A stretch of 64,000 nucleotides of DNA, taken from positions 27,474 through 91,473 of the forward strand of contig NZ_JNYZ01000035.1 of NCBI RefSeq assembly GCF_000717335.1, read 5' to 3'. This DNA is from Amycolatopsis jejuensis. GTDB taxonomy: Bacteria; Actinomycetota; Actinomycetes; Mycobacteriales; Pseudonocardiaceae. The position numbers and the translations under genes are program-made. Of this stretch, positions 6,477 to 49,607 are shown in pieces. The notes under the pieces were generated by a model that had not been told where the DNA came from, searched no databases, and saw only the letters and a list, made by a program, of their open reading frames with translations. Position 1 is the stretch's first letter, and each line of letters begins with the position of its first letter.

Positions 6477-8294
6477 TCAGGACAGGTGATGCACTTCCGG
6501 CAACCCGTACACCGGGGTGGACACGCCCTCGTAGCGGGCTTTCAGTTGCAGCGCAAGGTACAGCGAGTAGTGCCGTGACTGGTGGAGGTTCCCGCCGTGG
6601 AACCACAGTCCGTCTTGCCGGGTCGGCTTCCACATGTTGCGCTGCTCGCCCTCCCACGGGCCAGGGTCCTTCGTCGTTTCCGAGCCGAGGCCCCAGCATT
6701 TGCCGACCTTGTCCGCGGTTTCCCGGCCAACGAGGTCGGCGACCCAGCCGTTCATCGAGCCGTACCCGGTGGCGTAGACGACCAGGTCGGCGTCCAGTTC
6801 GGTGCCGTCGGCGAGCACGACCGTCTTGGCGGTCAGATGGTCGACCTGGCCGTGTGCGAGCTTGATGCTGCCGTTGGCGACGAGCTCCGAAGCACCGACG
6901 TCGATGTAGTAACCCGAACCGCGGCGGAGGTACTTCATGAAGAGGCCGGACCCGTCGTCGCCCCAGTCGTGCTTGAAGCCGGCCGCTTCGAGCCGGGCGT
7001 AGAAGTCCTTGTCCCGCTCGTGAATTGCCTGGTACACCGGGATCTGGAACTCGGGAAGGACCCGGTACGGGATCGACGCGAAGATCAGGTCGGCCTTCTC
7101 GGTGGTGACCCCGGCGGCCAGCGCGCGTTCGGAGTACAGGTCGCCGAGGCCGAGGTCCATCAGCGAATCGGACTTCACGATGTGCGTGGACGAGCGCTGC
7201 ACCATGGTCACGTCGGCGCCGTGTTCCCACAGCGCGGCGCAGATGTCGTGCGCCGAGTTGTTCGACCCGACGACCACGGCTTTCTTGCCTGCGTACGCGT
7301 CCGGGCCGGGATGCTGCGACGAGTGGTGCTGGTCGCCCTCGAACTCGTCCATTCCGGGGAACGACGGCAGGTTCGGCTTGCCGGACATCCCGGTCGCGAA
7401 CACGACGTGCCGCGGGGTGAGGACGATCTGCTCGCCGTCGCGTTCCACCGCGACGTGCCACTGCTTCGCCTCGTCGTCCCACGACGCGGAGGTGACCGCG
7501 GACCGCGTCCAGTACGGCACCTCCATCAGGCGCGTGTACATCTCCAGCCAGTCGGCGATCTTGTCCTTCGGCGCGAACACCGGCCAGTTCTCCGGGAACG
7601 GCAGGTAGGGCAGGTGGTCGTACCAGACCGGGTCGTGCAGGCAGAGGTTCTTGTACCGCTTGCGCCAGGAGTCGCCGGGCCGGTCGTTGCGTTCCACGAC
7701 CAGCGCCGGTACGCCCAGCTGACGCAGCCGCGCACCGAGCGCGATCCCGCCCTGCCCGCCGCCGATCACGACGACGTACGGCTGCTCGTCGTACCCGAGC
7801 GTCTCTTGCTCCGCGGCGCGTTTCTCCGCCCACGAACGGCGGCCGCGGACCACGCCGTGCTCCACGCCCTTCGGCCGCCGCTCGCGCTGGGCCTCCTCGA
7901 AGCCCTTCAGCTCACGCAGTGTGGTGAGCAGCGTCCAAGCGCCTTCTTCCTTCAGCCGCAGGTGCCCCTTCGCGCGGCCGGTGGCGGTCTCGAACTCGAT
8001 CCACGCCTCGGTGACGCCGTCGGCCTCGGTGGCCGGTTCGGTGGTGCGGAACCCGCGCGGATCGGTCGTCGCCAGGCAGCCGCCGAGCAGGCCCGCGATG
8101 CCGTCGCGGCCCTCGACGGTCTTGATGTTCCAGGTGAAGGAAACCAGGTCACGCCAATAGGAATCGACGGCGAACAGGGCCGCGGCAGCCTCGACGTCGC
8201 GAGCGGCGAGCGCGGCCTCGAACCGCTCCAGCCAGCCCTCGACCCGGGCCTGCGGCGAGTCTGCCGGCGCGATCCGGTCGACCGTCTGTGTCAT
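6477..8294 (-). CDS. NTF2-like/flavin-containing monooxygenase fusion
   Basis: 605 aa. Residues 1 to about 150 resemble a SnoaL/NTF2-like barrel (WLERFEAALAARDVEAAAALF). From about 180 there is a class-B flavoprotein monooxygenase: FAD site VVIGGGQGGIALG, a second Rossmann motif VVVGSNNSAHD for NADPH, and between them an FxGxxxH fingerprint-like FEGDQHHSSQH. It probably oxygenates an organic substrate (N-, S- or Baeyer-Villiger type) with NADPH and O2. The start at 8294 has GGAGGAG about 6 nt upstream. It is divergent from a GAF regulator that probably controls it. The two-domain architecture is not unusual in actinobacteria, but the substrate is unknown. Confidence 0.85.
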   Translation of the reverse strand: MTQTVDRIAPADSPQARVEGWLERFEAALAARDVEAAAALFAVDSYWRDLVSFTWNIKTVEGRDGIAGLLGGCLATTDPRGFRTTEPATEADGVTEAWIEFETATGRAKGHLRLKEEGAWTLLTTLRELKGFEEAQRERRPKGVEHGVVRGRRSWAEKRAAEQETLGYDEQPYVVVIGGGQGGIALGARLRQLGVPALVVERNDRPGDSWRKRYKNLCLHDPVWYDHLPYLPFPENWPVFAPKDKIADWLEMYTRLMEVPYWTRSAVTSASWDDEAKQWHVAVERDGEQIVLTPRHVVFATGMSGKPNLPSFPGMDEFEGDQHHSSQHPGPDAYAGKKAVVVGSNNSAHDICAALWEHGADVTMVQRSSTHIVKSDSLMDLGLGDLYSERALAAGVTTEKADLIFASIPYRVLPEFQIPVYQAIHERDKDFYARLEAAGFKHDWGDDGSGLFMKYLRRGSGYYIDVGASELVANGSIKLAHGQVDHLTAKTVVLADGTELDADLVVYATGYGSMNGWVADLVGRETADKVGKCWGLGSETTKDPGPWEGEQRNMWKPTRQDGLWFHGGNLHQSRHYSLYLALQLKARYEGVSTPVYGLPEVHHLS

Positions 8295-8363
8295 GGCTAC
8301 TCCTCCGACGTCGGTGTCGCGTGTTGTGCCGATCACACTCCTCGCGGCGGCCCCGCAGCAAGG

Positions 8364-8379
8364 GTTGCAGCGAGTTGCA
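8364..8379. promoter_or_regulatory. Direct repeat between monooxygenase and GAF regulator
   Basis: GTTGCA occurs twice with a 10-bp period (8364-8369 and 8374-8379), i.e. one helical turn, in the divergent intergenic region. It is a candidate binding site for the adjacent regulator; the evidence is only the repeat and its position. Confidence 0.3.
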
Positions 8380-8454
8380 CGCGGCTGGTCCATGGCGGCA
8401 TCGGCGCAGGTCACCTATGCTGAAGCGCTGACGCAACGCAGCGGGAGGTGGACT

Positions 8455-9636
8455 GTGGCGGTGCACAGTGCGGTCCCTCCGGGCCGCAACCTGCCCGCCT
8501 ACGCCCGCGATCTGGTCCGCATGCACGAGGCCGTGATCGGCGGCAGCCGTCCCGTCGTGCCACCCCGCCCGCTGGTCTCCCGCTCCTGGTCCCGTGTGCT
8601 GAGCCTCGGGCTCACCGCCGACGGCATGAACGCGCGCGATTCGGTGCCCGGCGACGAGATCGAACGGCGGCGGCACGGGTCACCGCTGCGGCACGTGATC
8701 GAAGACCTCCGGCAGATCGTGGGAGCAACGTCCGACGCGGCGCACATGTTGCTGGTAGTGACGGATGCGGACGGCGTCATCCTGTGGCGCGAAGGCTCGT
8801 CGGCCGTCCGGCGGCGGGCGGACACGCTGGGTTTCACCGAAGGGTCGGAATGGACCGAATCGCGGGTCGGCACGAACGCGATCGGCACCGCGCTCGCCGA
8901 AGCCGCACCGATCGAACTGCTCGCGGGTGAACACTTCGAGCAGAACCAGCATCCGTGGTACTGCACGGCGTCGCCGATCCACGACCCGCGCACCGGCGAA
9001 CTGCTGGGCGTCATCGACGTGAGCGGCCCGGCGCTCACCCTGCACCCCGCAATCGGCGCCCTCGTCGACACCGGCCGCCGGCTGGCCGAATCCGAGCTGT
9101 GGCGCTCGCACCGGCAACGCCTCGAACGGCTACGCCAGGTCGCCGAACCGGTGCTGGCATCGGGCCCGGCACTCGTCGTCGACGAGGACGGCTGGGTGGC
9201 ACACAGCGTGGGCGTCTCGGCAGGCGAACGCATTGCCGCCCCGCGCGCAGGCCAGGTAGTCGCGGTCCCCGGCCTGGGCGCGTGCCTGCCGGAACCCGTC
9301 GGCGACGGCTGGCTGGTCCGCCCGTCCGGCACGGGCCGCGCCGTCCTGCTCGAACTGGACCTCACCCCCGCTCCCCTGCTGAGCCTGCAAACCGGCGACA
9401 CCGGCTGGCGCCGCCCGGTGACTCGCCGGCACGCAGAAATCCTGGTACGACTGCAGAACGCGGGCCGCGAAGGCCTGTCCGCAGTTGCCTTGAGCCACGC
9501 GCTTTACGGCGATGCCGAGCACCTGGTCACTGTGCGCGCCGAGGTGTCCCGCCTGCGCCGCCTGCTGGGCGCCATCGTGGACACCCGCCCGTACCGCCTC
9601 GCGGACGGCGTCCGGATGACCGTGCACGCCGGGTAG
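8455..9636 (+). CDS. GAF-domain transcriptional regulator (AcoR-like N-terminal architecture)
   Basis: About 393 aa. The central GAF domain (about 75-225) carries the NAIGTALAE motif typical of AcoR-like activators, preceded by PLVSRSWSRVLSLGL. There is no sigma-54 AAA+ domain. The C-terminal about 80 residues look like a winged-helix module (VRAEVSRLRRLLGAIVDTRPYRL), as in actinobacterial GAF regulators. The GTG at 8455 follows GGGAGG by 6-7 nt; a GTG at 8461 is also possible. It is divergent from the flavin monooxygenase, so it is probably its sensor/regulator, with GAF binding the inducer. The inducer cannot be read from sequence. Confidence 0.8.
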   Translation: MAVHSAVPPGRNLPAYARDLVRMHEAVIGGSRPVVPPRPLVSRSWSRVLSLGLTADGMNARDSVPGDEIERRRHGSPLRHVIEDLRQIVGATSDAAHMLLVVTDADGVILWREGSSAVRRRADTLGFTEGSEWTESRVGTNAIGTALAEAAPIELLAGEHFEQNQHPWYCTASPIHDPRTGELLGVIDVSGPALTLHPAIGALVDTGRRLAESELWRSHRQRLERLRQVAEPVLASGPALVVDEDGWVAHSVGVSAGERIAAPRAGQVVAVPGLGACLPEPVGDGWLVRPSGTGRAVLLELDLTPAPLLSLQTGDTGWRRPVTRRHAEILVRLQNAGREGLSAVALSHALYGDAEHLVTVRAEVSRLRRLLGAIVDTRPYRLADGVRMTVHAG

Positions 9637-9702
9637 CGAGGGGTCGCTGTCAGCCGTCGCCGGACGGTCCGCTAGGGTTTACCTCACGTTGCACAGCGAC
9701 AA

Positions 9703-9774
9703 GCGCGATTAGCTCAGCGGGAGAGCGCTTCCCTGACACGGAAGAGGTCACTGGTTCAATCCCAGTATCGCGCA
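9703..9774 (+). tRNA. tRNA-Val (GAC)
   Basis: 72-nt cloverleaf. The acceptor arms GCGCGAT and ATCGCGC pair fully, the D arm is GCTCAGCGGGAGAGC, the anticodon stem is CTTCC/GGAAG with loop CTGACAC (anticodon GAC at 9735-9737), and the T arm contains GGTTCAATCCC. The 3' CCA is not encoded. Confidence 0.95.
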
Positions 9775-9776
9775 CT

Positions 9777-9796
9777 CCGGCCTACCCCAAGGCCGG
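9777..9796 (+). other. Inter-tRNA hairpin
   Basis: CCGGCCT and AGGCCGG form a perfect 7-bp stem around the loop ACCCCA, immediately 3' of the first tRNA and before the second. It may act in processing of a tandem tRNA transcript; this is inferred from position. Confidence 0.4.
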
Positions 9797-9810
9797 CGAG
9801 TTGCTGAAAC

Positions 9811-9885
9811 GGGCGATTAGCTCAGGGGGAGAGCGCTTCGTTCACACCGAAGAGGTCACTGGTTCGATCCCAGTATCGCCCACCA
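9811..9885 (+). tRNA. tRNA-Val (CAC)
   Basis: Acceptor GGGCGAT pairs with ATCGCCC; the D arm is GCTCAGGGGGAGAGC; the anticodon stem CTTCG/CGAAG encloses loop TTCACAC (anticodon CAC at 9843-9845); the T arm contains GGTTCGATCCC. Unlike its neighbour, the CCA tail is encoded (9883-9885). The two genes are nearly identical outside the acceptor ends and anticodon stem/loop, indicating tandem duplication. The AT-richer island starts directly downstream. Confidence 0.95.
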
Positions 9886-11030
9886 TCGCGGTCCTTGTTC
9901 ACACCTCGGCAGCACACGGTGCGCGGCGACGTACGGACGACGGCCGTTCCAGTATCTGACACACCCGCTATACCTGACCACGCGTCACGTCTAGCAAGAA
10001 GCTCACCGACAAACGCAATGTCATGCTCCGTCGACGACGTACGCAGTTGATTGGCCAGTTAAGGGTCTTGAAGGAAAAGAACTTCCCGACCGCTGGCCGC
10101 AAGGGCGCACCACAGCACAACGCAAGCAATGCTCTCTCAGCCCGGTTACCGCATCCGCGGCAACCGGCGTCGACCTCGTGCGCGATGCACGATGAAGAGT
10201 GGCTACCTCGTCCCATGGCGCTTACTAGGAGCCGGTGAATACCTGCGTCCGGCGGCTGCCACGGCCCGGAGGAGATTCGGGCACTCACCGCTCCAGCCAG
10301 CAAGCGGGCAACGCCTGCTCCCGCCACATCGCTACCGTGAGGTTGTACTGTTGGTGCCCGGAACCTCAGGCTGAACGACCTCGTCGGGCTTTCGGCACGA
10401 GCGAACGTCGTGGGAAGTCAGGCAATCGTGTCCGAGTTCGGCCAACGGCGAAGGCTGGCCGACGAGCGCGCGGGCTTCGGGATGACTCCGCCCACGATGA
10501 CAAGCGCAACAAGCGGACTGCCGGGACGACACGGCCACGCGACGTCGGCCCGGATGGCCCGCCAGGTTCCTGGCCGATTCCGATCAGGCAACAGCGCTTC
10601 AGCCGCCAATGTGGCGACGTCCTCGATGACCCAGGAGGATAGGTCGAGAGTCGACCGGATGGCTCCGCAGCCAGCATTTAGCCAACTCCAGGGAATTTCG
10701 CCAATCGAATTCCAGTCTCTCTCGTCGTGAGCCGGTTCTTCTCCGTAACAAGTGGTTCTTGCCGAACGATAAGGTCCAAGTTCCGAAAGGTCGGTGGTCG
10801 ACTGCGTCCAGGTACATCACAACGAGCCACCGCTGCTCGGGGCTATTGGCGACCTCCCTTGGGACCGGACATCGCAGCTTGTGTAATAGGGCTATCACTG
10901 CACATGGAACTGGAAAGGAAATCTTGGAGGATCGCCCGACAGGTTGACGGCAACTAACTAATCAACCGGCAGTTTGACCCTGCAGCAAGTTGCCTTATTG
11001 AACCGTACGCCATGGTCATGCTTGTTGGCA
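9886..11030. other. Gene-poor stretch between tRNA-Val and the PHP-SMC ATPase gene
   Basis: About 1.1 kb with no reading frame I can assign to a family on either strand. Base composition is lower in GC than the flanking chromosome, and stop codons are frequent in all frames. No integrase, transposase or duplicated tRNA 3' end was recognised. The position immediately 3' of tRNA genes suggests the eroded edge of an integrated element. The longest open stretches (near 9968-10327 and 10599-10898 on minus) lack good ribosome sites or family features. Confidence 0.4.
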
Positions 11031-11048
11031 TAAGGAGGCCGAATATCT

Positions 11049-11123
11049 ATGTCTACGACACGGTCGGGTAGCTCCGATCAACTGTGGCCTGAGAGGATGA
11101 ACGAGACTGACAAGCATGCGTGA
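11049..11123 (+). CDS. Putative 24-codon leader ORF upstream of the PHP-SMC ATPase gene
   Basis: A short frame (starts MSTTRSGSSDQ) with a strong AAGGAGG at about 11032-11038. Its TGA overlaps the ATG of the large ATPase gene in an ATGCGTGA arrangement. The ATPase start itself has no convincing ribosome site at normal spacing, so translation may be coupled through this leader. The peptide shows no recognisable motif, and the frame could also be fortuitous. Confidence 0.4.
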   Translation: MSTTRSGSSDQLWPERMNETDKHA

Positions 11124-13917
11124 CGATAGCGGCGCACACTTTTATCGATGCGACTTTCAGGTGCATTCACCCCGTGACGCCCAATGGAAAGGTCGGCGTC
11201 CGCGGACACTCGAAGATCGGAAATCATATGCGAGCAGATTTGTGGCAAAATGTCGTGCACTCGGGTTGGATGCGGTTGCGATCACCGATCACCATGACCT
11301 TGTCTTCGCACCACTGATCAGGGCTGCCGCTCAGCGCGAGACGGGCCCAGACGGTCGTCCGATTCCACTAGATCAACAGCTCGTCGTCTTCCCCGGTGTC
11401 GAACTTACCCTGGGAGTTCCGTGTCAAGCCCTGTTGATCCTCGACGCCGACATGCCGGATGATCGCCTCCCCCAGGTACTGGATGCCTTGGCCTGTGAGC
11501 AACACAATGAACAGGCCGGAAAGCTTCCCGACGTAAAACCACTCGAACACATCTCGAGCCTAAGCAAGCTATACGAGCTACTCAACCAACGAACTTGGCT
11601 CAAAGGCCGATTTATTGTACTACCAAATGTGACCGATAAAGGCCACCAAACACTCATGCGCCCTGGCATGCAATCGAAATACAAGGAAATGCCATGTGTA
11701 GGCGGCTACCTCGATGGCTCGGTCGCCAGTATCGGCACGGGTAACGCTCGGAAGTTCGCCGGCATGGACGCAGCGTGGGGCAGCAAGCCGCTTGCACTCT
11801 TCCAGACATCCGACAGCCGAAGCGACACACTAGAGGATCTCGGGAAATACTCAACCTGGGTCAAGTGGGCCGAACCAACGGCGGAAGCTTTGCGTCAGGC
11901 ATGCTTGGGGTATCAGTCGAGAATCTCGCAGCAAATGCCCGAACTACCAAGTGTATTCATTTCCCGGATCAACGTCTCAAACAGCAAGTTTCTCGGCCCT
12001 ATCGATGTAGCATTCAACTCCCAGTACAACTCGGTAATCGGAGGACGAGGAACCGGAAAGTCCACCATACTGGATTACCTTCGTTGGGGCCTTTGCGACC
12101 AAGCAGCTCAAGCAGGCGACGACGAACTTGCCGACCCAACAGTTCGTCGTGAAAAACTGGTAGAACAAACCTTGAAGCCCGTCTCTGGTCAGGTTGAGGT
12201 CTACTTCACAATCAACGAGATCCCACACGTTGTTCGACGAGACTCTGCAACCGGAGAGATTCTCCTCAAAGTTGGCGATGACGAATTCGAAAAGGTCCGA
12301 GAAAGCCACGTGCGCTCACTTCTTCCTATTCACGCGTACAGTCAGAAGCAATTGAGCAGCGTGGCCCTTCGAGTTGACGAACTCACACGTTTCGTCACCT
12401 CACCTGTCAAGCGAGATCTTGACGCAGTCGATCAAAGGATTTCAGAACTTGCTGGGCGAATTCGCGAGAACTATGCTAAGGTGCAGCGTGCACAACACCT
12501 GGACGTGACAATTAGGCAACAGAGACTCGCCAAAAGGTCACTTGCAGAACAAGCAGCCAACTTGCGCAACTCTCTCACTGACCTTTCACAAGATGATCGC
12601 ATGGTGCTCGATTCCAAACCCGACTACGATCGCATCGGCCAGTCTTTACAGATCCAGGAACGTGATTTGCATCAGGTCAATGGTTCAGCTGCAGCTCTAA
12701 TCAATGAATTGGAGCAGGTTTCACGAGGCCTCGAAGATCTGATCGATGCACCGGCACACCTTAATGATCTTGTGACGGCGGTACTCACCGCAAATAGATC
12801 CGCGATCGAAGGCCTGCACGAAGCTGTCGCGGCCGGAGCGACCGCATTCGCGCAAACCCAAGAAGCAGGCTCTACATCACAGCTAGCAAAAACGGCTCTA
12901 GAAAGAGAAATTTCCGATTTCGAAATTCGTTACGAAGAAGTGAAGCAACGTTCTACTTCCCATCAGACTCATCTAAAGGAGCTTGCCCAGATCGAAGCTC
13001 AGCGGAAGAGTGTAGCTGACCTCCTTCAACAGCACGAGCTTGACCGAAGGACCCTGGGCGATCCTAGAACTCTTCATTCCGAATTGCGATCTGAATTTGT
13101 AGCCCTATTTTGGGAACGGTCTTCGTTACTTTCGGAAGAATGCATTCGACTAACCAAGCTATCGCAGGGACTCTTACGCGCATCAATCAACCGCGGGCGA
13201 GGGATCAATGCCATCGAGCAAAAGTTTCGAGCGACCATTCAAGGGTCCGGGGTTCGCGGAGGACGGGTCGAGCAGCTTTTCTCAGGGCTTCGCGACGAGT
13301 CGGCCCCCTTGGCGACCTGGGAGGAGGTACTGAATGAAATCGAGTCAATTCTACTACTGGAAGCGGATGCCCAACATACTTCCGAGGCGACACCGAACCT
13401 AACTCGACTCGGCTTCCCAATCGCCGACCAGCACCGCATCAGAACCCAGATTACACCAGATTCGTGGCTCGATCTCTCACTCACACCCATAAGCGACGAA
13501 CCCGTTTTTGAGTATCAAACAAAAGAGGAGGAGTTCATCGCCTTCAGTGCCGCATCAGCCGGCCAGCAAGCGACCGCATTGCTACGGGTCCTTCTTTCAC
13601 AAACGGGAGCACCGTTGATCATTGACCAGCCGGAAGATGACCTCGACAGCCAGGTCATACAAGACGTCGTGGCACAGATCTGGAAGACCAAATCAGGACG
13701 GCAAATTGTTTTTGCAAGCCACAATGCCAACCTGGTGGTGAACGGTGATGCGGAACTTGTCGTCGCATGCGACTACCGGAAGGCAGGAGACCAGTCCGGC
13801 GGAAAAATCAGCTTGCAAGGCGCGATAGACGTCCCCGGCCTTCGGGACGAGATCACGAAGGTCATGGAAGGGGGTGAGAAGGCGTTCCGCCTTCGCAAGG
13901 AAAGATACGGCTTTTGA
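11116..13917 (+). CDS. PHP-domain/SMC-like ATPase (TrlF-like family)
   Basis: 933 aa. The N-terminal PHP metal-phosphoesterase domain (about 9-225) shows CDFQVHSP, AITDHHD and FPGVEL. The first His of the usual HxH is Gln here. Next comes an SMC/RecN-type ABC ATPase: Walker A GGRGTGKST at about 309-317, a long charged coiled-coil-like region (about 430-690), signature SAGQQATALL at about 812, Walker B PLIIDQPEDDLD at about 836 and H-loop FASHN at about 867. The domain order matches TrlF-like ATPases and single-gene PHP-ATPase phage-defence proteins (Ppl type). The role probably involves nucleic-acid or nucleotide processing; defence is inference. Codon use is far AT-richer than its neighbours, and the tRNA-proximal position points to horizontal transfer. 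No partner gene is visible. Confidence 0.85.
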   Translation: MRDDSGAHFYRCDFQVHSPRDAQWKGRRPRTLEDRKSYASRFVAKCRALGLDAVAITDHHDLVFAPLIRAAAQRETGPDGRPIPLDQQLVVFPGVELTLGVPCQALLILDADMPDDRLPQVLDALACEQHNEQAGKLPDVKPLEHISSLSKLYELLNQRTWLKGRFIVLPNVTDKGHQTLMRPGMQSKYKEMPCVGGYLDGSVASIGTGNARKFAGMDAAWGSKPLALFQTSDSRSDTLEDLGKYSTWVKWAEPTAEALRQACLGYQSRISQQMPELPSVFISRINVSNSKFLGPIDVAFNSQYNSVIGGRGTGKSTILDYLRWGLCDQAAQAGDDELADPTVRREKLVEQTLKPVSGQVEVYFTINEIPHVVRRDSATGEILLKVGDDEFEKVRESHVRSLLPIHAYSQKQLSSVALRVDELTRFVTSPVKRDLDAVDQRISELAGRIRENYAKVQRAQHLDVTIRQQRLAKRSLAEQAANLRNSLTDLSQDDRMVLDSKPDYDRIGQSLQIQERDLHQVNGSAAALINELEQVSRGLEDLIDAPAHLNDLVTAVLTANRSAIEGLHEAVAAGATAFAQTQEAGSTSQLAKTALEREISDFEIRYEEVKQRSTSHQTHLKELAQIEAQRKSVADLLQQHELDRRTLGDPRTLHSELRSEFVALFWERSSLLSEECIRLTKLSQGLLRASINRGRGINAIEQKFRATIQGSGVRGGRVEQLFSGLRDESAPLATWEEVLNEIESILLLEADAQHTSEATPNLTRLGFPIADQHRIRTQITPDSWLDLSLTPISDEPVFEYQTKEEEFIAFSAASAGQQATALLRVLLSQTGAPLIIDQPEDDLDSQVIQDVVAQIWKTKSGRQIVFASHNANLVVNGDAELVVACDYRKAGDQSGGKISLQGAIDVPGLRDEITKVMEGGEKAFRLRKERYGF

Positions 13918-14002
13918 GGTACCACGCATATCTATCGAACTTGGTGTTCGGCGATGTGCGGCCGTGACGACCTCTGTATGTTATGTGCGTATGACACCAC
14001 GC

Positions 14003-21141: not shown

Positions 21142-22109
21142 GCGTTCGCCGAAACGGTCAGCACGATCTTGCCCAGATGTTCGTCCGCGGCAAGGACGTC
21201 CTGGGCTTCGAGGACGTCCGTCCAGGGCATGATGCGGTCGATCCGCGGGTCGAGCCGTCCGCCGTGCAGCGCCGCGGACAGATCAGCGCGGACCCCGGCG
21301 GCGATCGCGGCCTTCTCGGCGTTGTCCCGGGTGCGGAACGTGACGCCGACGATCTCCAACCGCTTGAATGCCAACGTTTCCAGGTCCAGCGAGCCGAGCG
21401 CACCACCGAGCCGCCCGACGCCCACAATGCGGCCCTTCACGGCTGCCGCGGCGACGTGCTGTTCGAGATAAGGACCGCCGACGTGGTCGACGATGACGTC
21501 CACACCGTGTCCGTCGGTGGCCGCCCGGATGGCGTCGGCGAAGGCACCCGAACCGGTCCCGACCACGGTGTCCGCGCCGAGTTCCTTGAGGAACTCCTCG
21601 TCCCGCAACGACCGCACCGCCGCGATGACCCGGCTCGCGCCGAGCTCGTTCGCGATCCGGATGGTGGCCTGCCCGACGCCCGACCGGGCCGCGTTGACCA
21701 GAACGGTCTCGCCGGGGATGAGCCGTCCCGCCGTGCGCAGCGCGTTGTGCCCGGTCATCAGCGCCAGCACTGCGGCCGCGCCCATTTCGAACGACCACGC
21801 GTCCGGCAAGCGGATCGGCAAGCGATCGTCGACGACCACCCGTTCCGCCAACCCGCCACCCACGATGGTCATCACGCGATCACCCGGCGCCAGCGCGGAA
21901 TCCGCATCGGCTTCGAGCACGACGCCCGCGCAATCGAGCCCGGCGACGGTGCTGGCCCCGTGCGTCCCGCCTCGAGCGGCGAGATCCGCCCGGTTGACCG
22001 ACGCGGCCCGGACCCCGATGAGGACCTGACCGGCCGACCGCTCCGGAGCCTCGATTTCGCGCAGCTGAATCGCCGGTCCCGGCCCCTGCGCGACCATCAT
22101 CGCCTGCAT
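21138..22109 (-). CDS. Zinc-free quinone oxidoreductase (MDR superfamily)
   Basis: 323 aa medium-chain dehydrogenase/reductase. The GroES-like N-terminal part is IGVRAASVNRADLAARGG, the substrate loop region is AAAVLALMTGHNALRTAG, and a Rossmann motif VLVNAARSGVGQATIRIA precedes a C-terminal LGKIVLTV. No catalytic zinc ligands are seen, as in NADPH:quinone reductases or enoyl reductases. The ATG at 22109 follows GGGAGGAA. It is coupled to the hydratase gene downstream and lies 27 bp after a second reductase of the same superfamily. It probably reduces an unsaturated ketone or quinone intermediate. Confidence 0.85.
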   Translation of the reverse strand: MQAMMVAQGPGPAIQLREIEAPERSAGQVLIGVRAASVNRADLAARGGTHGASTVAGLDCAGVVLEADADSALAPGDRVMTIVGGGLAERVVVDDRLPIRLPDAWSFEMGAAAVLALMTGHNALRTAGRLIPGETVLVNAARSGVGQATIRIANELGASRVIAAVRSLRDEEFLKELGADTVVGTGSGAFADAIRAATDGHGVDVIVDHVGGPYLEQHVAAAAVKGRIVGVGRLGGALGSLDLETLAFKRLEIVGVTFRTRDNAEKAAIAAGVRADLSAALHGGRLDPRIDRIMPWTDVLEAQDVLAADEHLGKIVLTVSANA

Positions 22110-22135
22110 GTGTTCCTCCCTTCCGGAAGGCCGCG

Positions 22136-23044
22136 TCAAGCGGCCATCCGCAACACAACCTTCCCCAGCGAGTGCCCGTCCTCGACCAGCGCGAGCGCGG
22201 CCTTGGCGTCCTCGAAGGGCCGGATTTCCGTCACCAGCGGATCGAGCGTTCCTGCCTCGACCCGCCGGACCAGCTCGGTCAGCACGCGCGTGCTGCGATC
22301 CCGCGTGACGTCCTGCCCGCCCAGCTCCCCGACCAACGGTTTGTCGGCGACCGACCGCAGCCGCGACTTGTCGGCCACGAGCTCGGCGACGGTCCGCAGC
22401 GCGTCGCCGCCGACCAGGTCGAACACGGCGTCGACGCCGTCCGGTGCGAGGGCGCGGAGCCGGTCGAGCACGCCGTCGCCGTACGCCACCGGGATTCCGC
22501 CGTACCGCCGCACGATCTCGTGCTTGGCCGGGCTGGCCGTCCCGAGCACCCGCAGTCCCTGGTCCCGGGCGAGCTGCAGCATCGGAATCCCGACCCCGCC
22601 GCCCGCGCCGTTCACCAGCAGCGTCGCGCCCGCCGGGAGCGCGAGGCCCTCCAGCGCGTCCCACGCCGTCCCCGCCGCGACCGGCAGGGATGCCGCCAGC
22701 TCGGGGCTCACCGCGGGAGGCCGGTGCGCGGCAAAGGAAGCCGTGACGATGGCCTCCTCCGCCCATCCGCCGACCATGCCCGGGCAGCCGCCGAAAACCT
22801 CGTCCCCCACGGCGAATCCACTCACGCCCTCGCCGACCGCGGTCACGGTTCCGGCGACCTCGCGGCCCAGCACCGCCTGCCCGGCGGTGCCGTACGAGCC
22901 CTCCCGCAACCGCCAGTCCCCCGGATTCACCCCGGCCGCCCGCACCCGGACCCGAAGCTCGTCCGGCCCCGGCTCGGGCACTCCGACCTCCAGGAACGCC
23001 TCGTTGTCCGGCCCGCCGACCTGGGTGAATCCGTACGCCCGCAT
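22136..23044 (-). CDS. NADP-dependent MDR oxidoreductase
   Basis: 302 aa, the same superfamily as its downstream neighbour. The N-terminal MDR part is VRVRAAGVNPGDWRLREGSYG, the nucleotide site is LLVNGAGGGVGIPMLQLA, and the C-terminus is HSLGKVVLRMAA. It has no zinc-ligand pattern, so it is a quinone/enoyl-reductase type. The ATG at 23044 has GGAGG 6-7 nt upstream. It sits between the MFS transporter and the second reductase on the same strand, so it is probably part of the same transcript. Two adjacent but clearly different reductases suggest successive steps on one substrate. Confidence 0.85.
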   Translation of the reverse strand: MRAYGFTQVGGPDNEAFLEVGVPEPGPDELRVRVRAAGVNPGDWRLREGSYGTAGQAVLGREVAGTVTAVGEGVSGFAVGDEVFGGCPGMVGGWAEEAIVTASFAAHRPPAVSPELAASLPVAAGTAWDALEGLALPAGATLLVNGAGGGVGIPMLQLARDQGLRVLGTASPAKHEIVRRYGGIPVAYGDGVLDRLRALAPDGVDAVFDLVGGDALRTVAELVADKSRLRSVADKPLVGELGGQDVTRDRSTRVLTELVRRVEAGTLDPLVTEIRPFEDAKAALALVEDGHSLGKVVLRMAA

Positions 23045-23063
23045 GTTCGTCCTCCATCGCTGC

Positions 23064-24419
23064 TCATCCGGCATGAGCAGCATCGCCCGTGCGGCTGGAC
23101 GTGTCGTCGGCGGGTCGGGGCCCGGCGGTGCGACCCAGGTACAGCGGGAGTTTCGCGACCACTACCGCCGCGACGACCGAGACGCCCACTCCGACCAGCG
23201 CGAGGTACATCGGCGCGCCGACGCCCAGCAGCGAGATCAGGCCGACCATGACCAGCCCCAGCACCCCGCCGATGGAGGCGATGACCAGGTTGTACGACAG
23301 CGAGTAGCCGGTCTGGCGGACCTCCGCGGGATACAGGGACGACACCAGGCCGGGCACCATCGCGATGGACGCGCCGGACCCGATCGCGCCCGGCAGGCCG
23401 ATCCAGTAGACGAGGCTCGACCCGGCCGGGAGCCCCGGCAGCACCACGAGCAGCAGCACGGACCCCGCGGCCGAGATCGCCGCCGCGCAGAGCAGCGCCC
23501 GCCGCCAGCCGAAACGGTCGGCGACCCGGCCCCACACCGGCATCAGCACGAGCGCCCCCGAAATCGACACCAGGCTCGTCATGAGGGCTTTCGTCGGCGA
23601 AATGTGCAGGGAATGCTGGAGATACGTCGGCCAGAAACCGATGTAGGCGGTGTTGCCGATGACGAGCGTCGACACGATTGCCGCGCCGAACAAGGCCGCG
23701 CGACGGTGGTTCCTGAACACCTCGCGCACCGGGCTCTTCTGAACGGTGCGCTCGGACGCACTGAAGACCGGCGTTTCGTCGAGCTTGCGGCGCAGATACA
23801 TCGACACGACACCGAGGACTCCGCCGACGAGGAACGGCAGCCGCCACGCCAGGTCGGGCATTCCCGGCGTCAGGTTCGCGGCGATGACCCCGCTCAGGAA
23901 AGCGACCCCGGCACCGCACAGCTGCCCGATGAAGGTCACCATCTGCTGGAATGATCCGGCTCTCGCGACACCGCCACGAGGAGCGTGTTCGGTCACGAAA
24001 ACCGCCGCCGCGGGGACTTCACCGCCCATCGCGCAGCCCTGGATCGCCCGCATCAGGATCAGCAGGATCGGGGCTGGCCAGCCGATCTGCGCGTAGGTCG
24101 GCAGGAGACCGGTGGCGAGCGTGGCCGCGGACATCACGATCACGTTGAGCACGAACAACCGTTTCCGGCCGACCTGATCCGCAATGCGCGCAATGAGAAT
24201 TCCGGCGACGGGACGGATCAGGAAACCGATGGCGTAAATCGCGAAAGTCTGGGCCAGCCGGAGCGTTTCGGACGATCCGGAGGGCAGGAAGTCCTTGCTG
24301 ATCAGGGTCGCGACGTAGAGGTAGACGACGAGGTCGTAGTTCTCGAGACCGACCCCGAGCGAGCCGAGGCGGATGTTCCGCCGGATCCGACGCTGTTCGG
24401 ACTGTGGCGAGAGCACCAT
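23064..24419 (-). CDS. MFS transporter, metabolite:H+ symporter (MHS) type
   Basis: About 451 aa with 12 predicted membrane helices. The cytoplasmic loop motifs ARIADQVGRKRLFVLN (between helices 2 and 3) and RVADRFGWRRALL (between 8 and 9) are typical of MHS symporters such as ShiA/ProP, as is the N-terminal RRNIRLGSLGVGLENYDLVVY. It probably imports an organic acid used by the adjacent reductases and hydrolases. The ATG at 24419 follows AAGGGTG by about 8 nt. It ends 19 bp before the reductase start, so it probably heads that operon. Confidence 0.9.
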   Translation of the reverse strand: MVLSPQSEQRRIRRNIRLGSLGVGLENYDLVVYLYVATLISKDFLPSGSSETLRLAQTFAIYAIGFLIRPVAGILIARIADQVGRKRLFVLNVIVMSAATLATGLLPTYAQIGWPAPILLILMRAIQGCAMGGEVPAAAVFVTEHAPRGGVARAGSFQQMVTFIGQLCGAGVAFLSGVIAANLTPGMPDLAWRLPFLVGGVLGVVSMYLRRKLDETPVFSASERTVQKSPVREVFRNHRRAALFGAAIVSTLVIGNTAYIGFWPTYLQHSLHISPTKALMTSLVSISGALVLMPVWGRVADRFGWRRALLCAAAISAAGSVLLLVVLPGLPAGSSLVYWIGLPGAIGSGASIAMVPGLVSSLYPAEVRQTGYSLSYNLVIASIGGVLGLVMVGLISLLGVGAPMYLALVGVGVSVVAAVVVAKLPLYLGRTAGPRPADDTSSRTGDAAHAG

Positions 24420-27082: not shown

Positions 27083-27985
27083 ATGAAGCTGGTCCGGGTC
27101 CGCGCACGCGGCGAGTCTCGCTTCGCGTTCGTCGAAAGCGACGACCGATTCCGCCTGCTGCCGCCGAACCTGAGTCTCGCCGACGCGCTCCGCTCCGAGC
27201 CCGGCGGTGAGACCGTACCCGCTGGTGAATGGGAATTACTTGCCCCGGTGCCAAGTCCGGCGAGCCTGCGCGACTTCGTCGGCCACCTGCAGCACATCCG
27301 GAACACGCGGCGCAGCCGGGGTGTCGTCGATCCCCTGCCACCGGAATGGGCCGCGCGTCCCGCGTTCTATTTCGCGAATCCGCACTCCCTGCATTCGTGC
27401 TCTGCCGACATCGCGATTCCGGCCGGGAGCAAGGCGTTCGACTTCGAATTGGAAATCGCCGTGGTCGTCGGAAAAGGTGGTCGCGACCTCACCCTCGCCG
27501 AGGCAGGCGAGGCAATCGCCGGATACGTCCTGTACTGCGACTGGAGCGCCCGTGACATCCAGACCGAGGAGCGCGCCATGCAAATCGGGCAGGGCAAAGG
27601 GAAAGACTCGGCCATTTCCCTCGGTCCGTGGATTCTGCCCGCTGCGGACGCCGCGCCGTTCGTGCGTGCCGACGGCCTCGACTTCCCGGTCAGCGTGCAG
27701 GTCAACGGCGAGGAGGTGACCGCCCCGGGGACGCGGTACGCCGGGATGGACTGGACCTTTTCGGAACTCGTGGCGTACGCGTCGGCCGGGGTCGATCTGG
27801 TACCCGGAGAGGTGATCGCGGCGGGCACGGTCCCCACTGGGTGCCTGCTGGAACACTCCGGCGCCGACGATTTCCGCGGCTGGCTCGCCCCGGGCGACGA
27901 AGTCCGCCTCTCCGCCGGGCCGCTCGGCGAAATCACCAGCACGATCCTGCCCGGGGTCCCGCTCGCCGCGTGGCGCCGACCTTGA
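27083..27985 (+). CDS. Fumarylacetoacetate hydrolase-family protein
   Basis: 300 aa. The FAH fold metal ligands are visible as DFELEIAVVVGKGG (two Glu) and CDWSARDIQTEE (Asp), then GKGKDSAISLGPWI and a C-terminal GEVIAAGTVPTGCLLE. Such enzymes hydrolyse C-C bonds of acylpyruvates or decarboxylate/hydrate related keto-acids with Mg2+. The ATG at 27083 follows AAAGGA. It is the second gene after the acyl-CoA synthetase; together they suggest processing of a diketo or ring-opened acid, but the substrate is unknown. Confidence 0.88.
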   Translation: MKLVRVRARGESRFAFVESDDRFRLLPPNLSLADALRSEPGGETVPAGEWELLAPVPSPASLRDFVGHLQHIRNTRRSRGVVDPLPPEWAARPAFYFANPHSLHSCSADIAIPAGSKAFDFELEIAVVVGKGGRDLTLAEAGEAIAGYVLYCDWSARDIQTEERAMQIGQGKGKDSAISLGPWILPAADAAPFVRADGLDFPVSVQVNGEEVTAPGTRYAGMDWTFSELVAYASAGVDLVPGEVIAAGTVPTGCLLEHSGADDFRGWLAPGDEVRLSAGPLGEITSTILPGVPLAAWRRP

Positions 27986-45761: not shown

Positions 45762-46552
45762 TGCTGACCGGAAATGTCACGCTGCTGACCGGCGGTGGAT
45801 CCGGCCTCGGCCGCGCCCTCGTCGAACGCTTCCTCCGCGAAGGCGCCCGCGTCGGCGTACTGGAACATTCACCCGAGAAAGCCGCCCGGCTGGAAACCGA
45901 TTTCGGGGACGCCGTCGCGGTCACGGTCGGCGATGTCAGCTCCGCGGCCGACAACGTTTCCGCCGTTTCCCGCACCCGCAAGGCCTTCGGCAAGCTGGAC
46001 ACGTTCATCGGCAACGCCGGGCTGTGGGACTTCGGCAAGGCCCTGCTCGACCTCCCGGCGGAGGCCTGGCCCGCTGCCTTCGACCAGCTGTTCCGCGTGA
46101 ACGTCCAAGGTTACCTGCTCGGCGCGCGAGCGAGCGTGGAAGCGTTGCGGGAAACCGGCGGAAGCATGATCTTCACACTGTCGAACGCGGCTTTCCACCC
46201 CGGTGGCGGCGGACCGCTGTACGTCGCCGCGAAACACGCAATCCGTGGCCTGATCACGCAATTGGCCTGGGAACTGGAAAACGTGGTCCGCGTGAACGGC
46301 GTCGCGCCCGGGGCGATGTCGACGGAATTGAGCGGTTTACCCGCCCTCGACCAGGACGGCGTCACCCTGCGCGGCACCATCGAATCCATCGGCGGCGAGG
46401 ACGCCTTCGCGACAATGATCGGACGGCCCCGGCTGCCCCGCCCGGAGGATTACGTCGGCGCATACGTCCTGCTTGCCTCCGACCAATCCCGCACCACCAC
46501 CGGCACCGTGTTCGAAACACACGGAATGCTGGGCGCACCCGCCAAGAGCTAG
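45761..46552 (+). CDS. cis-dihydrodiol dehydrogenase-like SDR
   Basis: 263 aa. The SDR cofactor loop is LTGGGSGLGRALVERF, then GNAG (about 87), the catalytic Ser in FTLSNAAFHPGGGGPLY and YVAAKHAI (Tyr/Lys about 155-159). The segment SNAAFHPGGGGPLYVAAKHA closely follows BphB/TodD-type cis-dihydrodiol dehydrogenases. It oxidises the arene cis-dihydrodiol made by the dioxygenase to a catechol with NAD+. It lies directly between the ferredoxin reductase and the dioxygenase alpha subunit. Confidence 0.9.
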   Translation: MLTGNVTLLTGGGSGLGRALVERFLREGARVGVLEHSPEKAARLETDFGDAVAVTVGDVSSAADNVSAVSRTRKAFGKLDTFIGNAGLWDFGKALLDLPAEAWPAAFDQLFRVNVQGYLLGARASVEALRETGGSMIFTLSNAAFHPGGGGPLYVAAKHAIRGLITQLAWELENVVRVNGVAPGAMSTELSGLPALDQDGVTLRGTIESIGGEDAFATMIGRPRLPRPEDYVGAYVLLASDQSRTTTGTVFETHGMLGAPAKS

Positions 46553-49510: not shown

Positions 49511-49607
49511 GGTCTTCCTTCCCGGTCGCTGCCTGCCAGCTGAGGCTGTCCGCATGGTAGGCAGCGCCGGGGTGCCCAGGCCCGGATTCCGTTCCGATGC
49601 CCGGAAC

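Follow-up and report, generated by a model that had tools for sequence, protein, structure and literature searches.

Proteins that join a PHP phosphoesterase domain to an SMC-like ATPase in a single gene are common in databases, and the anti-phage protein Ppl was the only one for which our literature search found a described mechanism, namely a 3'-5' exonuclease of single-stranded DNA that is released by nucleotide depletion and 3'-OH ends, according to a review (PMC12904381). Linkage to restriction-modification (R-M) systems is a feature of PrrC and RloC, of which the former is described in PMC2610378 as invariably linked to type Ic R-M systems and the latter as linked to type I or III systems in 8 of 73 instances. 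Here we analyze a TrlF-family gene in a stretch of 64,000 nucleotides of Amycolatopsis jejuensis (contig NZ_JNYZ01000035.1, forward strand, positions 27,474 to 91,473; this whole stretch is called the window), for which a first-pass annotation had proposed a Ppl/TrlF-like defence gene acquired at a tRNA hotspot. The new points are a variant PHP site shared throughout the clade of this protein and an apparent swapping of R-M systems among its relatives; support for a tRNA hotspot is weak here. The best supported reading, which we hold with almost as much belief as doubt, is that the protein is a Rad50/SMC-like ATPase that would bind DNA ends and drive a PHP nuclease, a defence protein standing as an orphan here. 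The gene itself belongs to the TrlF family, was acquired horizontally and probably remains functional.

The open reading frame (ORF) in question has 933 codons and contains every motif that the first-pass annotation had cited. Its features are as follows.

11116-13917, + strand: TrlF-family PHP-SMC ATPase of 933 residues, with a GC content at third codon positions (GC3) of 0.55 (motifs, NCBIfam, and a ratio of nonsynonymous to synonymous substitution rates, dN/dS, of 0.087)
11137-11937, + strand: PHP domain, residues 8-274, Endonuclease Q-like predicted fold with variant ligands (alignments, model, fold match)
12040-12066, + strand: Walker A motif GGRGTGKST, residues 309-317 (motif, homologue alignment)
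12373-13161, + strand: long helical insert, probably a coiled coil, residues ~420-682, splitting the two halves of the ATPase head (predicted secondary structure)
13555-13584, + strand: ABC signature SAGQQATALL, residues 814-823 (motif, homologue alignment)
13615-13647, + strand: Walker B motif and D-loop LIIDQPEDDLD, residues 834-844 (motif, homologue alignment)

The NCBIfam model TrlF_fam_ATP (NF045780) matched the protein with 508.6 bits against a cut-off of 350, over residues 6-932 and positions 2-944 of the 944 in the profile, whereas the Ppl model (NF042955) reached only 182.4 bits against a cut-off of 1000; the best PADLOC match was likewise Ppl (PDLC02208), with 143 bits and beginning at residue 237. 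By these models the protein is thus a member of the TrlF family and not Ppl, a name that we rejected because the score lies far under its cut-off. When 7995 candidate proteins were scored, 3229 relatives were obtained, the nearest of which is an 83% identical protein of Amycolatopsis acidiphila annotated as 'TrlF family AAA-like ATPase', a name that NCBI also gives to several other close homologues. JGI labels many close TrlF homologues (P0006, P0010, P0016 and others) 'type III restriction enzyme' or 'chromosome segregation protein', which are probably automatic names. The best 120 of the 3229 relatives, among them the protein of the window itself (P0002), were aligned; the motifs Walker A, signature and Walker B hardly vary in this alignment, and the PHP domain is joined to a split ABC/SMC head. 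The structure model (predicted local distance difference test, pLDDT, 88.4) consists of an SMC/Rad50-type head, with the predicted fold of Rad50, RecN and SMC heads, and a PHP barrel whose closest structural match is Endonuclease Q, and a PDB sequence search with a profile of the whole protein returned chiefly SMC heads and coiled coils. Together the motifs, the TrlF score and the model bear out the PHP-SMC fusion that had been proposed. A model of the PHP domain alone, made without an alignment, had a pLDDT of 32 and was discarded. Promoter and terminator scans gave no signal better than chance.

The PHP site departs from the nine-ligand PHP consensus, given as H H D/H H E H C/H D/N H in PMC3666897. 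Its ligands in the window protein read Q15 H17 D21 H59 E96 Q104 N171 D233 R235, so that about four of the nine canonical residues are replaced (H1 by Q15, H6 by Q104, C/H7 by N171 and H9 by R235), the mapping, above all of positions 3 and 6, being by sequence alignment only. Of the homologues that are not gapped at the respective site, 109 of 110 carry Q15 (10 further homologues are gapped there), 117 of 117 carry Q104, 118 of 118 carry N171 and 119 of 120 carry R235; in a second alignment, N171 is replaced by histidine in 2 of 18 close rows (L126, L141), and among 19 more distant rows an HxH is present in 9 and histidine stands at position six in 13 (counted by eye), at position seven in 18 and at position nine in one. 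The first-pass annotation had correctly noticed that the first PHP histidine is a glutamine and, since the replacements are nearly fixed in the clade, this glutamine is, as judged from the alignments, a mark of the clade rather than a lesion of the window copy. Ligands H17, H59, E96 and D233 are conserved as well, together with an added H60 and D61. With respect to the 83% relative, dN/dS was 0.087 for the whole gene, 0.076 for its PHP part and 0.038 for residues 691-933, values that are rough because dS is about 1.1 and thus near saturation; at 0.087 the window gene is probably functional. The replacement of about four of nine ligands may nevertheless mean that PHP catalysis is lost, and the domain of this clade could then be catalytically dead and serve as a structural part or as a nucleotide- or DNA-binding sensor, in which case any effect would be due to the ATPase or to a partner that this locus lacks. 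A precedent is the PHP domain of E. coli DNA polymerase III, for which such a role has been proposed and for which PMC3666897 reports five of nine ligands changed, including an arginine at position 9, and no bound metal. The near invariance of the replacements, the retention of the other ligands with H60 and D61, and the low dN/dS of the PHP part suit a working, rewired site at least equally well, and we consider a dead PHP domain rather improbable.

The second line of evidence, which bears on the proposed role of the protein as a defence ATPase reading DNA ends, comes from the neighbourhoods of its relatives. A search of genome contigs with the single protein found nothing, while a search with the alignment found 573 stretches encoding a relative, of which the best 80, together with L087, form our locus set; with a boundary that we set at 38% identity or more, 38 of these loci are close and 43 distant. 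An R-M operon lies upstream of TrlF and on the same strand in 8 of the 38 close loci, and the systems include types I, II and III.

L111, type I: HsdM-HsdS-HsdR, then one ORF, then TrlF
L147, type I: HsdR-HsdM-HsdS upstream of TrlF
L117, type II: C5-methylase and Eco29kI-like endonuclease upstream of TrlF
L118, L139 and L142 (the last from Blastococcus), type III: Mod-Res upstream of TrlF
L112 (969-11802, Mycobacterium neglectum), type III: DrmD-like helicase, Mod, Res and TrlF on one strand
L137: type I/IIG-like set, then two ORFs, then TrlF

In two further close loci (L140, L143) the R-M match is on the opposite strand. One locus, L158, is a fragment at a contig end (63% identity, 7 bp upstream, no R-M match) and was grouped with the distant loci; moving it would change the proportion of R-M-linked close loci to 8/39 and that of the distant loci with an AlbA_2-like neighbour, described below, to 15/42. 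Among three inspected plasmid loci, pMI3 carries Mod-Res-TrlF with a gap of 8 bp, pAt12D13a has a restriction endonuclease 32 bp upstream of TrlF, and the third has RepA. A control set from the genus of the window, 25 flank loci with 406 kb in total, contained no R-M match, a comparison restricted to one genus, and Pfam was applied to 20 hand-picked neighbour proteins of the TrlF loci.

The TrlF proteins of L111, L112 and L147 are mutually 82-85% identical, yet the system upstream is of type I in L111, of type III in L112 and again of type I, a different one, in L147. The restriction subunits of these systems have no BLAST similarity at an E-value of 1e-3, and the HsdM proteins are 24% identical. 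On a tree of 30 rows the R-M label needs at least five changes on well-supported branches; this tree omits 11 of the 38 close loci (L119, L121, L125, L127, L128, L130, L131, L138, L140, L143, L144), and L135 was dropped because of one in-frame stop. Since such similar TrlF proteins follow very different systems, TrlF appears, from these comparisons, to move between R-M types, which suggests a shared trigger that is independent of any one restriction enzyme. Our literature search, with subscription papers outside its reach, found nothing on TrlF with R-M systems.

The same linkage makes RNA cleavage a real rival, because RloC and PrrC, in which a nuclease is joined to an ATPase of the Rad50-like or ABC kind, show that such a combination can be tied to R-M systems and DNA breaks. 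TrlF could accordingly be a suicide device: its head would respond to broken DNA or to the failure of an R-M enzyme, and its PHP domain would then cleave an RNA such as tRNA, so that growth stops. The layout of ATPase and effector is comparable and the R-M linkage is of the same kind (PMC2610378), RloC has been tied to DNA breaks (PMC3874168), and a PHP 5'-3' exoribonuclease (7ug9) was among the matches of the PHP-domain profile (E-value 0.0017). Structurally, however, the PHP domain is closest to an enzyme that cuts DNA, an endonuclease, and since TrlF proteins of 82-85% identity adjoin very different systems, it is less likely that a single R-M protein controls them directly. To our knowledge the PHP domain is also unrelated to the nuclease domain of RloC, which counts against this alternative, and we regard it as unlikely.

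On the reading that we prefer, the protein would dimerize through its Rad50/SMC-type ATPase head, which bears a coiled-coil arm, the head would engage DNA ends, and its nucleotide state would be coupled to the N-terminal PHP domain, which would cut or resect nucleic acid when a phage or plasmid attacks. TrlF is, in some of the close relatives, a module riding behind type I, II or III restriction operons, and the likeliest common trigger would be a broken DNA end and not the enzyme, because no subunit common to the three types was found and all of them make cut DNA; the orphan copy of the window would act on ends made by something else. We infer dimerization, end sensing, nuclease activity, defence and partner-free action. 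A bolder version, in which the whole clade rides on restriction systems regardless of their type, with one conserved effector that reads cut DNA ends and acts through a rewired PHP site, and the window copy works free of partners on ends from any source, seems to us possible and rather doubtful.

Several observations weigh against the preferred reading. No R-M match was found in 28 of the 38 close loci (8 of all 38 have short upstream flanks), and the reference proteins of the R-M census were drawn from these same loci, from one distant locus and from plasmids, so that the census undercounts and has no independent background. On the tree, loci with the R-M label group together more than chance would have it (3 of 500 shuffles were as low), and hence the linked loci are not all independent. 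Pfam matches of other, non-R-M neighbours include a MobA/MobL relaxase (L115), HlyD and PAS domains (L116), TraG (L129) and, in L138, a protein of a gene-transfer agent or phage tail. The possible loss of PHP catalysis belongs here too, as does the failure of our literature search, again with subscription papers outside it, to find an experiment on TrlF. In the window itself, PADLOC found no match in ten neighbours on both sides of the gene, as the first-pass annotation, which saw no partner, had anticipated. No HSDR_N match was found in the genome of the window by a search that was positive for 9 of 14 control genomes, nor was a relative of the Res subunit of L142, by a search without a positive control. 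Four neighbours of the 83% relative were likewise without a Pfam or PADLOC match, and this relative may also be an orphan.

The window locus thus has no R-M neighbour and does not share the linkage of RloC and PrrC; one N6_Mtase match was found in its genome, the search having covered HSDR_N, the L142 Res subunit and N6_Mtase. The copy looks like an orphan, and the proposal of a defence gene draws on the R-M operons of 8 of 38 close loci and finds no defence neighbour at the window locus.

The proposed acquisition of the gene is borne out. Its GC3 is 0.547 as compared to a mean of 0.865 (standard deviation 0.053, range 0.733-0.950) in 16 other genes hand-chosen from the window, and since even the lowest of these lies at 0.733, the gene is foreign by composition. 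Moreover, it is sporadic in distribution, being carried by only one of 80 genomes of the genus, namely the window's own, and, in the family, by 5 of 297 genomes with a match over the curated cut-off, again including its own. Matches at an E-value of 0.001, present in 294 of the 297 genomes, were discarded, and only the five were counted, because the weaker matches are probably ordinary SMC-like proteins. The check on relatives that had been suggested therefore found a gene that is not conserved in the genus and has codon use unlike its host. DNA similarity with the 20 kb around the 83% relative is confined to 11112-13917. Plasmid records contained some match in 1110 of 72,556 cases, of which 18 had a match with a coverage of 80% or more, and 811 of the 1110 were typed conjugative; phage records gave matches to the C-terminal ATPase only (12-13% of the query, 7 records). 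This distribution also bears on the idea that the protein is a DNA-repair or housekeeping ATPase serving breaks of the host itself, for which the Rad50/RecN/SMC fold of the head and an electronic note 'double-strand break repair' on the pMI3 record can be cited. Its absence from 79 of 80 genus genomes, its rarity in the family, its foreign GC and the plasmid and R-M linkage of its relatives make such a role very improbable.

Six of seven other family loci that we compared (four over and three under the TrlF cut-off) have the TrlF-matching gene in a clear GC dip, the gene of L090 lying only slightly below its flanks, and a tRNA is present in the 17.5-20 kb examined around the gene in three of the seven. 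At L089 (6622-11248) the order is tRNA-Arg, a phage-type integrase with a GntR-like end and a TrlF-family gene, which favours tRNA integration for that locus only. At L092 (9043-13875) and L093 (6161-10874) we observed AT-rich islands with an SMC-like ATPase seemingly without a PHP part, followed by three more ORFs, one of them response-regulator-like by eye.

The features of the insertion site in the window are the following.

9703-9775, + strand: tRNA-Val (GAC) (ARAGORN, Rfam)
9811-9885, + strand: tRNA-Val (CAC), bounding the variable region on the left (ARAGORN, Rfam; left synteny with three relatives stops at 9828-9883)
9886-11115, no strand: stretch of lowered GC without a recognizable gene, 1,230 bp (GC bins, genus-wide DNA search)
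9886-49600, no strand: whole variable region, standing for 6.6-11.6 kb in three relatives (synteny comparison)

Both tRNA-Val genes and the drop in GC described earlier are present, but the gene does not follow the tRNAs directly, as it is separated from the pair by 1,230 bp. In 1-kb bins the GC content is 51-61% across 10001-14000 and 64-74% in the rest of the window, so that this is its single AT-rich stretch; the region that differs from relatives is, however, about 39.7 kb long (9886 to ~49,600) and not the 4 kb of the presumed island. The tRNA-Val pair occurs together in 46 of 60 genomes (our own count from best E-values and rows). In three relatives, within the 20 kb compared, left collinearity is found at window positions 6477-9883 only (~87% identity) and resumes at 49601-49607, with about 7.6, 6.6 and 11.6 kb of intervening DNA as compared to 39.7 kb in the window.

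Between the tRNAs and the gene, 9886-11115 has only matches of 26-52 bp, in 9 other genomes among the 80 of the genus. Relic genes were considered in this stretch, since three of these short matches fall within ORFs of other genomes that were named by eye as IS110-like, substrate-binding-like and TetR-like, and the idea was dropped because the protein scores (22.3, 19.6 and 20.8 bits) stayed below the highest score among 60 shuffles, 23.9 bits in each case. A blastx search for R-M remnants against 193 neighbour proteins found nothing under an E-value of 0.6, and several short tblastx pieces, down to 4.8e-7 (L049), were taken as frame noise of GC-rich DNA.

To the right, 14003-49555 is an accessory block of host-like GC that is missing at the site in the three relatives. 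The 20 scanned of its 34 called ORFs (14.0-49.6 kb) are mainly catabolic genes, besides regulators, and encode, among others, a GCV_T-type protein, a formyltransferase, an AMP-binding enzyme, a linalool dehydratase/isomerase, a P450, a Rieske oxygenase and an extradiol dioxygenase; one-carbon genes are among its contents, and a FolD/GCV_T block resembling the first accessory genes lies elsewhere in relative G068 (77%). An ORF of 925 residues at 21177-23954, chosen by GC3, has no Pfam match at 1e-5 and may be in the wrong frame. The 20 scanned ORFs include no integrase, and no direct repeat of at least 13 nt of 9703-9990 that could mark an attachment site was found in 9991-64000, where one inverted 13-mer lies at 46219; these results lend no support to the proposed tRNA-mediated integration at this locus. 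Nor do the relatives point to a defence hotspot, since the ORFs scanned there in the three relatives encode phospholipase C (3/3), aminotransferase (2), RHS (1) and MFS (1, the only relative in which that ORF was scanned) proteins. In relative G009 an RHS-repeat protein was observed after the tRNA-Val pair (L050, 767-5044). With no integrase in the 20 ORFs, no attachment repeat and no PADLOC neighbour, the site is a variable site beside tRNAs, at which a tRNA-integrated element or a defence island is not demonstrated.

Other contexts were found around some relatives. A TIR-domain gene lies 8 bp before the matched TrlF start in L123 (8012-8992, Aurantimonas manganoxydans), the gene upstream of TrlF is SLFN_AlbA_2-like and divergently oriented in four flavobacterial loci, and 15 of the 43 distant loci have an SLFN_AlbA_2-like gene directly downstream (L160, L162, L163, L172, L175-L180, L182, L183, L185-L187), an R-M match being present in 10 of the 43. 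The distant TrlF-like gene and its AlbA_2-like neighbour are perhaps a two-gene system.

For experiments, the nearly fixed variant PHP site offers precise residues for testing, and the orphan copy of the window would serve as a simple one-gene test case. Compared with known systems, the protein matches the TrlF family NF045780 over its full length and above the cut-off, but its close rows carry Q, Q, N and R at four PHP ligand positions, at the first three of which distant rows often have histidine. With Endonuclease Q it shares the predicted fold of the PHP domain; we know of no SMC head in that enzyme. Like Ppl, it combines PHP and SMC-like ATPase in one gene with partial similarity (182 and 143 bits), although the best stretch begins at residue 226-237, so that most of its PHP part is poorly matched. 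Finally, it resembles RloC and PrrC in pairing an ABC/Rad50-like ATPase with an effector domain and, through its relatives, in a linkage to R-M systems that extends to all (PrrC) or part (RloC) of the members, while it differs from both in having PHP as the effector and in the presence of one relative, L117, beside a type II system.

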